Shown here piece after piece: positions 28,989 to 63,027 of a stretch of DNA of 64,000 nt. The notes below the pieces were generated by a model, which did no database searches, had not been told where the DNA came from, and saw only the letters and a list, made by a program, of their open reading frames with translations. Every line of letters starts with the position of its first letter. Position 1 is the first letter of the stretch. Both the position numbers and the translations under genes were made by a program. Source of the stretch: Micromonospora sp. PLK6-60 (GTDB lineage Bacteria; Actinomycetota; Actinomycetes; Mycobacteriales; Micromonosporaceae); NCBI RefSeq assembly GCF_019890675.1, contig NZ_JAIOAA010000011.1:124001-188000 (forward strand). Reading direction: 5' to 3'.

Positions 28989-29006
28989 TCCCCCCGTTCC
29001 ACCTCG

Positions 29007-29065
29007 TCGATCAAGGGGTTCACGTCGCCGCCGACGCTCCGGGGCGACGCGAACCCCTTGATCGA
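29007..29065. terminator. Long bidirectional stem-loop terminator
   Basis: 23-base arms (left 29007-29029, right 29043-29065) pair with a single A/C mismatch around a 13-base loop. The outer part is TCGATCAAGGGGTTC with its complement. It lies between the convergent stops at 28988 and 29074 and should end transcription from both sides. Confidence 0.85.
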
Positions 29066-29073
29066 CCAGGAGG

Positions 29074-30492
29074 TCAGGACAGGGTGACGGTGGGATAGAG
29101 GGGGAAGTTGCCGAGCAGGTCGGTGGCCTGCCGGCTCACCTTGTCGGCCAGGGCCGGGTCCAGCACGTACTTCGCCTTGGACTCGCCGGCGGTGGTCTGG
29201 CTGAGCACGGTGTGGATCAGCTCGGCGGTGGCGTCCATCTCGGCCGTGCCGAGACCCCGGGTGGTCAGCGCGGGCGTGCCGATCCGGATGCCGGAGGTGT
29301 ACCAGGCGCCGTTCGGGTCCTGCGGCACGGCGTTGCGGTTGGTCACGATGCCCGAGTCGAGCAGCGCCTGCTCCGCCTGCCGGCCGGTCAGGCCGTAGGA
29401 GGAGACGTCGATCAGCACCAGGTGGTTGTCGGTGCCGCCGGTGACCAGCGTGGCGCCCCGGCGGGTCAGCCCCTCGGCCAGCGCCTGCGCGTTGCTGACG
29501 ATCCGCTGGGCGTAGTCGGCGAAGTCGGGGCGGCGGGCCTCGGCCAGCGCGACCGCCTTGGCGGCCATCACGTGCGGCAGTGGGCCGCCGAGCACCATCG
29601 GGCAGCCCCGGTCGACCTGGTCGGCCAGCTCCGGCCCGCAGAGCACCAGGCCGCCGCGCGGACCGCGCAGCGACTTGTGGGTGGTGGTGGTGACGATGTG
29701 CGCGTGCGGCACCGGGTCGAAGTCGCCGGTGAAGACCTTGCCCGCGACCAGGCCGGCGAAGTGGGCCATGTCCACCATGAAGGTGGCGCCGACCTCGTCG
29801 GCGATCTCCCGCATGATCCGGAAGTTGACCTTGCGCGGGTACGCCGAGTAGCCGGCCACCAGGATCAGCGGCTTGAACTCCCGGGCCGCCTCGGCCACCA
29901 GGTCGTAGTCGATCAGGCCGGTGGCCGGGTCGGTGCCGTAGCTGCGCTGGTCGAACATCTTGCCGGAGATGTTCGGCCGGAACCCGTGGGTGAGGTGGCC
30001 GCCGGCGTCCAGCGACATGCCCAGCATCCGCTGGTTGCCCAGCTCGCGGCGCAGCGCGAACCAGTCCGCCTCGGTCAGCTCGTTGACCTGACGCACCTGG
30101 GCCTTCTTCAGCGCCGGGGACTCCACCCGGTCGGCGAGGACCGCCCAGAACGCCACCAGGTTGGCGTCGATGCCGGAGTGCGGCTGCGCGTACGCGTGCG
30201 ACGCGCCGAACAGCTCCCGCGCGTGCTCGGCGGCGAGCGCCTCCACGGTGTCGACGTTCTGGCAGCCGGCGTAGAAGCGGCGGCCGACGGTGCCCTCGGC
30301 GTACTTGTCGCTGAGCCAGTTGCCCATGGCCAGCAGGGTCGCCGGGGAGGCGTAGTTCTCGCTGGCGATGAGCTTGAGCGACTCGCGCTGGTCGGCCAGC
30401 TCCTGACCGATCGCGTCGGCCACCCGGGGCTCGACGGCCCGGATGACCTCCAACGCGCTGCGGAAGGCGGTGGACTCGGCGTTCGGCGACAT
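29074..30492 (-). CDS. glyA: Serine hydroxymethyltransferase
   Basis: A 472-residue PLP enzyme that interconverts serine and glycine with tetrahydrofolate, the main source of one-carbon units. Markers are [10 protein letters not shown] (about 41-50), the PLP lysine Lys273 in [25 protein letters not shown] (about 241-251) and the [14 protein letters not shown] tail near residues 410-423. The length exceeds the usual ~420 because of an insertion at about 121-155 containing [20 protein letters not shown], seen in a subset of actinobacterial enzymes. The ATG has CAGGAGG 6 bases upstream. A ZTP riboswitch occupies the leader. Confidence 0.96.
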
Positions 30493-30514
30493 GCGACCTC
30501 CTGGAGAATGTGCG

Positions 30515-30600
30515 AAGGCCCAGGCGCTCGGCGTGCGTCCGTATGACGAGACCGCTTCCCGATGGTGCTCCATCCCCACGCGCCAGTCACGGCCCGCAGC
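30515..30600 (-). ncRNA. ZTP (pfl) riboswitch controlling glyA
   Basis: Read on the minus strand, the glyA leader contains the conserved pfl-motif landmarks in order: GGGCCGTGACTGGCG (complement of 30581-30595), then ATCGGGAAGCGG, a version of the CCGGGGAGC element (around 30550-30566), a variable stem region, and GCGCCTGGGCC (30517-30527) with the terminal CGCCTGGGC signature. The ZTP riboswitch turns on one-carbon genes such as glyA, purH and folD when 10-formyl-THF is low and ZTP accumulates. The aptamer ends about 13 bases before the RBS, so control is probably of translation initiation. The order and spacing match well, but no covariance search was run. Confidence 0.82.
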
Positions 30601-30602
30601 CG

Positions 30603-30608
30603 ATCCTA
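30603..30608 (-). promoter_or_regulatory. -10 element of glyA
   Basis: TAGGAT on the minus strand, about 7 bases before the expected first base of the ZTP riboswitch. This fits a transcript that begins at the aptamer's first stem. No good -35 element is seen at 16-18 bases upstream. Confidence 0.5.
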
Positions 30609-30712
30609 GCGGGTTCGTCCGGCCTCGTCCCGGTGCACCCGCCGACGCGGGCGGCGACGGTGCGGGCCCGCCGCCGGACCGGTCGCCGGCGGCGGACCCG
30701 CGACTCCTCACC

Positions 30713-30718
30713 TAGGAT
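30713..30718 (+). promoter_or_regulatory. -10 element of metallophosphoesterase gene
   Basis: TAGGAT ends 8 bases before the ATG at 30727. The interval CGAAAGCC has only a weak purine run, so the transcript may start at or next to the ATG (leaderless). Confidence 0.4.
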
Positions 30719-30726
30719 CGAAAGCC

Positions 30727-31611
30727 ATGACGGTGACCGCGGACGACGGCACCCTCTTCGCGATCAGCGACCTGCACGTCGGTCACGCCGCCAACCGGGC
30801 CGTCGTGGAGTCGCTGCGTCCGCGCTCGCCGCGGGACTGGCTGCTGGTCGCCGGGGACGTCGGTGAGCTGGTGGCCGATGTGGAGTGGGCGCTGGGCCTG
30901 CTCGCCGGGCGCTTCGCCCGGGTGGTCTGGACGCCCGGCAACCACGAGCTGTGGACCCCGACGAGCGACCCGGTGACGTTGCGCGGGGTGCCGCGCTACC
31001 AGCACCTGGTGGCGATGTGCCGGCGGCTGGGCGTGCTCACCCCGGAGGACCCGTACCCGGTCTGGCGGGGCCCCGGCGGGCCCGCGCTGGTCGCGCCGCT
31101 GTTCCTGCTGTACGACCACAGCTGGCGCCCCGACGGGCTGGCCAGCCGGGAGGCGGCGCTGGCCGAGGCGTACCGCAGCGGCGTGGTCTGCACCGACGAG
31201 TTCCTGCTGCACCCCGACCCGTACCCGAGCCGGTGGGATTGGTGCGCCGCCCGGGTCGCGGAGACCGCCCGCCGGCTCGACGGCAGCGACCCGGCCCTGC
31301 CGACCGTGCTGGTCAACCACTTCCCGCTGGTCCGCGAGCCGACCCGGATCCTGCGGCATCCGATCTTCGCCCAGTGGTGCGGCACCGCCGCCACCGCCGA
31401 CTGGCACCGGCGCCACCACGCGGTCGCGGTGGTCTACGGGCACCTGCACATCCCGCGCACCACCTGGCACGACGGGGTGCGCTTCGAGGAGGTGTCGGTG
31501 GGCTACCCGCGGGAGTGGCGGCCCCGGCCCCACCCGCCCGGGCGGCTGCGCCAGATCCTGCCCGCACCCGACGAACCGGCCGCCGGGCCGGAGGGGATCT
31601 TCCGGTTCTGA
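30727..31611 (+). CDS. Metallophosphoesterase
   Basis: A 294-residue calcineurin-like phosphoesterase with the five metal-binding blocks: D-x-H in SDLHVGH (about 14-20), GD in VAGDVGE (about 41-47), GNHE in TPGNHELW (about 69-76), the N-H pair in VLVNHFPLV (about 203-211) and GHLH in VVYGHLHIP (about 238-246). It is probably a cytoplasmic phosphodiesterase or phosphatase; the substrate is unknown. It stands alone, divergent from glyA. Confidence 0.9.
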   Translation: MTVTADDGTLFAISDLHVGHAANRAVVESLRPRSPRDWLLVAGDVGELVADVEWALGLLAGRFARVVWTPGNHELWTPTSDPVTLRGVPRYQHLVAMCRRLGVLTPEDPYPVWRGPGGPALVAPLFLLYDHSWRPDGLASREAALAEAYRSGVVCTDEFLLHPDPYPSRWDWCAARVAETARRLDGSDPALPTVLVNHFPLVREPTRILRHPIFAQWCGTAATADWHRRHHAVAVVYGHLHIPRTTWHDGVRFEEVSVGYPREWRPRPHPPGRLRQILPAPDEPAAGPEGIFRF

Positions 31612-61836: not shown

Positions 61837-61864
61837 GTGACCAGGGCCGGCGCTGCCCTAGGAT
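61837..61864 (+). promoter_or_regulatory. Promoter of second two-component pair, leaderless
   Basis: GTGACC (61837-61842) as -35 and TAGGAT (61859-61864) as -10 with 16-base spacing. The ATG at 61873 is 8 bases after the -10, so the transcript is likely leaderless. An in-frame GTG at 61837 is therefore part of the promoter rather than the start. Confidence 0.55.
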
Positions 61865-61872
61865 CGGCGGGC

Positions 61873-63027
61873 ATGACGGTCGACGGGGTGTGGACGGGAG
61901 CCGACCGGCGGCTGCGCCGCGCCCGGCAGGTCACCCTCGTCTTCCTGGTCACCAGCGTCTGGGCCAGCCTGCTGCTGCCCGGTGCCGGGCTGACCCGCGA
62001 ACCGGACCCGACGCGGGTCACGCTGGGCGCGGTGGCCGTGCTCGGCTTCACCGTGGCCCAGACCTCCGTGCTCTACGCGGCGGTCACCCCCGGGTTGTCC
62101 CACCGGTGGCGGCGCCGCTTCACGGTGGGGCTGGCCGTGACGGCGGTGCTCAGCGTCCCGCTGGCCGGGCCGGTCGCCGCCGGCACCTGGCCGACCTGGG
62201 CCTGGCTGGGCGCCTCGCTGGTCGGCATGGCGCCACTGGTGCTGGCCACCCCCGGCGCGCTGGTCGCCTCGGCGGCCGTGGTCGCGGTCTCCGCCGGGGT
62301 GGCCCGGTGGACCGGGGGCTCGCTCACCGACCACCTGATCATTACGGGGCTGGTCGGGGCGGGGGTCGCCACGGTCAACCGGGCGCAGGTCTGGTTCTGG
62401 GACCTGCTGGTCGAGGCCCGGCAGGGCGAGCAGGCGCGGGCCCGGCTGGCCGCCGCCGAGGAACGGCTCCGGTTCGCCCGCGACGTGCACGACCTGCTCG
62501 GGCATGATCTGACCGTGATCGCGCTCAAGGCGGAGCTGGCCGCCCGGCTCGCGCCGGTCGACGCCGCCCGGGCCGGCCGGGAGGCCGACGAGGTACGCCG
62601 GCTCGCCGGCACCGCGCTGCACCGGGTCCGCGAGGCGGTGCACGACTACCGGGCGGTCGACCTGACCGAACAGCTCACCGCGGTGGGGGAGGTGCTGCGC
62701 TCCTGCGGGGTGCGCTGCACGGTGCGGTCGCCGGACGGCGAGCTGCCCGCCCGGGCCGCCGCCGACCTGGCCGCGGTGCTGCGCGAGGCCGGGACCAACG
62801 TGCTGCGGCACAGCCGGGCCGGGTGGTGTCGGATCGACGTCGAGCGGGAGGACGACATGATCACCATGACGGTACGCAACGACGGGGCGGCGGCCGGCGC
62901 ACCGGATGAGCACAGCCACGGGCTGCGCGGGCTGGCCGAACGGCTCGCCGCGGGCGGCGGCGGCCTGGCCGCCGGGCGGGACGGCGACGAGTTCGTCCTG
63001 CGGGCGCGGGTGCCGGTGACCCCGTGA
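61873..63027 (+). CDS. NarL-type sensor histidine kinase
   Basis: A 384-residue kinase with about six membrane helices in the first 165 residues and no sensor domain, like DesK-type thermosensors or envelope sensors. The HisKA_3 domain has His206 (FARDVHDLLGHDLTVIALK). The HATPase domain has the N box (LREAGTNVLRHSRAG) and G boxes (HGLRGLAERLAAGGG). The start is the ATG at 61873. The response regulator gene overlaps it by 4 bases (GTGA). Confidence 0.9.
   Translation: MTVDGVWTGADRRLRRARQVTLVFLVTSVWASLLLPGAGLTREPDPTRVTLGAVAVLGFTVAQTSVLYAAVTPGLSHRWRRRFTVGLAVTAVLSVPLAGPVAAGTWPTWAWLGASLVGMAPLVLATPGALVASAAVVAVSAGVARWTGGSLTDHLIITGLVGAGVATVNRAQVWFWDLLVEARQGEQARARLAAAEERLRFARDVHDLLGHDLTVIALKAELAARLAPVDAARAGREADEVRRLAGTALHRVREAVHDYRAVDLTEQLTAVGEVLRSCGVRCTVRSPDGELPARAAADLAAVLREAGTNVLRHSRAGWCRIDVEREDDMITMTVRNDGAAAGAPDEHSHGLRGLAERLAAGGGGLAAGRDGDEFVLRARVPVTP

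Follow-up and report, generated by a model that had tools for sequence, protein, structure and literature searches.

Among the known targets of the pfl/ZTP RNAs are glyA and folD, and terminators that overlap the 3' region of the aptamer imply that these RNAs are ON switches (PMC2864571). Their ligands are ZMP and ZTP, which signal a shortage of 10-formyl-tetrahydrofolate (PMC7266159). In the C. beijerinckii switch, the terminator strand invades helix P3 of the unbound aptamer (PMC10907184). We observed an aptamer of this kind in the 5' leader of the one-carbon gene glyA, encoding serine hydroxymethyltransferase (SHMT), in a Micromonospora genome of which a stretch of 64,000 nucleotides (the window) was analysed. 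It has the same P1, P2, P3 and J1/2-L3 pseudoknot, with the same core letters, as the RNAs of C. beijerinckii (pfl), Thermosinus carboxydivorans and Fusobacterium ulcerans, and it is a further member of the known ZTP riboswitch class. The known class and the glyA leader are also alike in having a one-carbon target gene and, as we propose for the leader, competition for the 3' strand of P3. They differ at the output. In the best-studied ZTP switch an intrinsic terminator invades P3 (PMC10907184), whereas in the glyA leader, which has no terminator, the competitor would be the Shine-Dalgarno sequence. This output stage is modestly interesting in an otherwise ordinary member of the class.

A cmscan search matched the leader to RF01750 (ZMP-ZTP) over the full length of the model (positions 1-86), with an E value of 7.4e-05 when all families were run over the 64 kb. 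No other RNA family exceeded its threshold in the window, and the match is the only one to RF01750 in the 6.46 Mb genome, which holds no second ZTP copy. The sequence-only reading had recognised the landmarks of a ZTP aptamer on the minus strand and had proposed a covariance-model search as the check; both hold up. The landmarks run in order from GGGCCGTGACTGGCG (30595-30581) through TCGGGAAGC, which replaces CCGGGGAGC, to GCGCCTGGGCC, and the aptamer is made up as follows.

30511..30600, minus strand: ZMP/ZTP riboswitch aptamer (RF01750 at 30600-30511, 48.5 bits; gathering score 39)
30549..30595, minus strand: P1, GGGCCG (30595-30590) with CGGUCU (30554-30549), 100% paired in 52 distinct leaders
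30561..30574, minus strand: P2, GAUGG (30574-30570) with CCAUC (30565-30561), 100% paired in the same leaders
30523..30584, minus strand: pseudoknot (J1/2-L3), GGCG (30584-30581) with CGCC (30526-30523), invariant in the 52 leaders
30518..30532, minus strand: P3, GCC (30532-30530) with GGC (30520-30518), likewise invariant in the 52

Conservation was assessed in leaders collected as RF01750 matches from congeners and the order, to which those of 80 named relatives of GlyA were added; alignment A1 is made up of 52 distinct glyA leaders from Micromonosporaceae. All 18 pairs of the aptamer (P1, P2, P3 and pseudoknot) are kept in it, with 936 of 936 cells showing standard pairing, while sliding the partners by 1-3 columns left only 30-49% paired. 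P1 has exchanged G-C for G-U and A-U. The compensatory change from G-C to A-U accounts for six cells altered on both sides, at two pairs, and no shuffle gave that many. Covariation says nothing either way about P3 and the pseudoknot, because neither ever varies. Judged by covariance score and conservation, the leader almost certainly carries a genuine member of the ZTP riboswitch family, and we infer that it binds ZMP/ZTP. Decay of the aptamer into a recognisable relic that no longer regulates is very improbable. The three outermost model pairs of the match are non-standard and the genome is without the second (folD) ZTP copy that most congeners have, as such a relic might show; against this stand the invariance of every binding-core position in the 52 leaders, the covariation in P1, and the retention of this gene in 40 of 41 Micromonospora genomes. 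The one congener without it (G009) shows no aptamer either.

The folD-linked ZTP aptamers of the genus (e.g. L061, L066, L069) are of the same class; they differ in their target, are shorter (~80 nt) and are absent from this genome. A second ZTP copy here was considered and rejected; the only FolD match of the genome is a separate folD, ~50% identical to the riboswitch-linked one. In some folD-linked leaders of the genus, the Shine-Dalgarno sequence is covered by a hairpin of 9 perfect base pairs, GCUCCUCAC/GUGAGGAGC.

The sequence-only reading had also placed a promoter directly against the aptamer, and the comparison with relatives bears this out.

30603..30608, minus strand: -10 element TAGGAT of the glyA transcript (conserved spacing of TANNNT; rarity of TAGGAT)
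30595..30597, minus strand: predicted transcription start, G30597 or G30595 (position of the -10 element and published S. lividans spacing)

TAGGAT lies 7 nt ahead of G30595, the first base of P1. The window is 74% GC, TANNNT occurs in it at a frequency of 4.4e-4 per position, and TAGGAT occurs three times in 128,000 positions (64 kb, both strands), each time just ahead of a likely transcription unit; given this rarity, its placement before the aptamer is not a matter of chance. A TANNNT hexamer stands 13-15 nt before the aptamer core (ACTGGCG) in 113 of 113 glyA leaders, comprising 36 of the Micromonospora set (this one included), 20 from named Micromonosporaceae and 57 from Streptomyces and allies, with some genomes counted in two subsets. 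Of 28 class-wide ZTP leaders, 25 likewise have a TANNNT upstream of the core, at a distance of 10-18 nt. Upstream of the -10 element, conservation in the Micromonospora leaders drops to background, except for a CCGG adjoining it. No sigma-70 hexamer pair was found for glyA, and the Micromonospora leaders have no conserved block 17-19 bp upstream; a -35 element was therefore rejected. Promoters of S. lividans have a conserved TAnnnT with a weak -35, and a distance from -10 to start of 4-9 nt (mean 6.3) (PMC8079986). By this spacing the start would fall at G30597 or G30595, so that the glyA RNA should begin at P1 or within ~2 nt of it. On the strength of its position and conservation, the abutting promoter is close to certain to be real. 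The main texts of Streptomyces transcriptome papers with mapped starts mention neither ZTP nor glyA, and the cis-regulatory elements tabulated for S. lividans do not include RF01750 (PMC8079986).

The two other TAGGAT hexamers of the window are on the plus strand. The second, within 30713-30727, is 8 nt before the ATG of a divergent metallophosphoesterase gene (PF00149), whose mRNA is predicted to be leaderless; ~105 bp separate its -10 element from that of glyA. The third and last (within 61859-61873) stands 8 nt ahead of an ATG at 61873 that is in frame with ORF 61837-63027, which resembles a two-component sensor kinase by sequence. This is probably another leaderless gene.

The gene below the aptamer was identified as the earlier reading had it, and it is preceded by the two strands of the pairing that we propose as the switch.

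29074..30492, minus strand: glyA, serine hydroxymethyltransferase of the PRK13580 type, 472 aa (NF010094, PF00464)
30514..30520, minus strand: putative anti-Shine-Dalgarno strand GGCCUUC, overlapping the P3 3' strand (7-bp pairing kept; present in the minimum-energy fold)
30495..30501, minus strand: Shine-Dalgarno GGAGG plus UC (GGAGGUC), proposed to be sequestered without ligand (GGAGG invariant in A1)

The glyA product scores 840.9 bits against NCBIfam NF010094 (glycine hydroxymethyltransferase; cut-off 735) and contains the Pfam SHMT domain. Its nearest relatives are those of Micromonospora sp. KC723 (93% identity) and other Micromonospora, followed by Salinispora. A second, canonical SHMT is present in most of the 41 Micromonospora genomes, this one included, where the genome-wide RF01750 search gave it no ZTP aptamer. 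Just 3' of glyA, at 28999-29073, is a 36-nt inverted repeat that is 86% complementary, with 3 nt between its arms. Several sites of the genome hold related arm pairs (~45 nt spacing), and this repeat may thus be a dispersed palindrome doubling as a terminator.

The Shine-Dalgarno sequence AGGAGG is at 30502-30497, its GGAGG starting 16 nt past P3, and the ATG of glyA (30492-30490) is 25 nt past P3. A 7-bp helix that shares the GGC of P3 can form between GGCCUUC (30520-30514) and GGAGGUC (30501-30495). This pairing is present in 99.2% of cells over the 52 leaders, against 44-83% in the slid control, and the changes seen (U-G to C-G, C-G to U-G and G-C to G-U) keep it. Double-sided changes are absent from the 52 leaders, because the Shine-Dalgarno sequence is invariant. 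Exactly this helix also forms when the full leader is folded to minimum energy. In the other glyA-linked ZTP aptamers of Micromonospora, Actinoplanes and Streptomyces (L032-L187), the gene, the aptamer and the -10 spacing are the same as in the window; the linker length and the anti-Shine-Dalgarno helix differ. The helix reaches 9-10 bp in most leaders of Actinoplanes, Jidongwangia and Catellatospora, and in these genera opening the Shine-Dalgarno sequence costs ~2-8 kcal/mol more without P3 than with it, a difference that exceeds most shuffles. In the Streptomyces tested the helix has only 4-5 bp and is not above chance.

Folding energies, from models that leave out the pseudoknot and the ligand, were less distinctive for the window. 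Opening its Shine-Dalgarno sequence without P3 constraints takes 3.76 kcal/mol and is thus easier than in shuffled linkers, whose mean is 6.77; its ON-OFF difference of 0.57 is no better than that of shuffles, and its helix score is equalled by 8-15% of random linkers. The helix of the window thus stands out from chance to a moderate degree. The comparison of opening costs with shuffled linkers was positive for most Actinoplanes and allies, and not for Micromonospora as a group or for the window. The folding energies of leader segments do not fall below those of dinucleotide shuffles. A shorter segment (30540-30477) folds otherwise, pairing CCUGGG with bases at the Shine-Dalgarno sequence. This fold, and a linker in the window unlike that of most congeners, speak for translational control through some other pairing, for instance between CCUGG in the pseudoknot region and CCAGG at the Shine-Dalgarno sequence, or through a fold of the whole RNA from P1 to the coding sequence. 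We regard such a pairing as unlikely. The bases just before the Shine-Dalgarno sequence vary among congeners (CCAGG, CCTGG, GTAGG, GTTGG), whereas GGCCUUC/GGAGGUC is kept, and for this reason CCUGG/CCAGG was rejected as a conserved switch helix.

As the sequence-only reading had it, no terminator separates the aptamer from the ribosome-binding site: there is no terminator-like site within 30400-30800. The leader lacks the GC-rich hairpin followed by a U-tract and overlapping P3 that marks the intrinsic-terminator subtype, and a T-tract was found in 0 of 28 class-wide ZTP leaders. An intrinsic terminator as the output was rejected on these results, and the switch therefore probably acts on translation. 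When translation is blocked, the RNA of a GC-rich leader can thereby become accessible to Rho, and the GGCCUUC/GGAGGUC hairpin lacks nothing but a U-tract to be a terminator. For many pfl/ZTP RNAs, moreover, the described output is a terminator (PMC2864571). A switch on transcription, in which the ligand prevents termination by Rho, or at a hairpin free of a U-tract, within the leader or the early part of glyA, is nevertheless rather unlikely. In addition to the missing terminator-like site and T-tracts, the hairpin ends in the Shine-Dalgarno sequence itself, a few bases before the ATG, and the helix overlaps the Shine-Dalgarno sequence in nearly all Micromonosporaceae relatives. Translational control, which the earlier reading had suggested, is a likely output to judge by the conserved Shine-Dalgarno helix and its place in the minimum-energy fold. 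The same reading had contrasted such control with the habit of Firmicutes. The window has 74% GC and its GlyA is closest to Micromonospora sp. KC723, so a Firmicute origin was rejected; the host belongs to the Actinomycetota and the remark does not apply. With a T-tract terminator in none of the 28 class-wide leaders, translational output would not be unusual for the lineage.

Taken as a whole, a ZTP riboswitch that forms the 5' end of the glyA mRNA and acts as a translational ON switch through GGCCUUC/GGAGGUC is the account we favour, with reasonable though not high confidence. Transcription would begin at a -10-only promoter (TAGGAT), at P1 or up to ~2 nt from it. In the ligand-free leader, GGCCUUC, made up of the P3 3' strand and its tail, would pair with GGAGGUC and keep ribosomes off the Shine-Dalgarno sequence. 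When 10-formyl-tetrahydrofolate runs short, ZMP/ZTP would rise and bind the leader. Binding would lock the pseudoknot and P3, making the GGC of P3 unavailable and freeing the Shine-Dalgarno sequence; SHMT would then be made and one-carbon units restored. The choice of GGCCUUC/GGAGGUC as the switching helix is a reasoned proposal that draws on the folding models and the alignment, and we likewise infer the ON direction and the action of the helix on translation. By analogy, the leader fits the P3-invasion logic of C. beijerinckii, with the Shine-Dalgarno sequence as the invading strand.

With such a switch, the folate/purine alarmone ZTP would govern a one-carbon gene in a genus of antibiotic producers, and the proposed pairing spells out, base by base, how a ZTP switch could act on the ribosome and not on transcription. 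The mechanistic work cited here concerns terminator-type switches, and a compact ~105-nt leader with an abutting promoter would lend itself to comparing both outputs. More tentatively, and with somewhat more doubt than belief on our part, the ZTP switches found across the actinobacterial class of Micromonospora may form a distinct translational sub-kind, in which the mRNA starts with P1 behind a -10-only promoter, intrinsic terminators are missing and the 3' strand of P3 serves as the anti-Shine-Dalgarno. In the class-wide sample, the Shine-Dalgarno helix went beyond P 0.05 in just 3 of 22 leaders tested. If the sub-kind is real, it would use invasion of P3, as seen in terminator-type ZTP switches, to gate the ribosome instead.

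Several leaders collected from relatives depart from the usual arrangement. In L121 (Dactylosporangium) and L127 (Virgisporangium) the aptamer core was not found, and a GTG start codon follows within a few bases of TAGGCT or TATGGT, an arrangement that would fit loss of the aptamer and a change of glyA to a leaderless gene. Downstream of the ZTP aptamer of L053 (G003 C43) there is a long hairpin without mismatches (CGTTCCGGGAGGG...CCCTCCCGGGAACG), and no gene is obvious. The aptamers L086 and L087 (G040) precede genes resembling formiminotransferase-cyclodeaminase and dihydropteroate synthase. Finally, L056 (G010 C44) lies ahead of a metallophosphoesterase-like gene (MTVRHRILQLSDTHL...), which is not a usual ZTP target and whose product may have ZTP or a similar nucleotide as its substrate.
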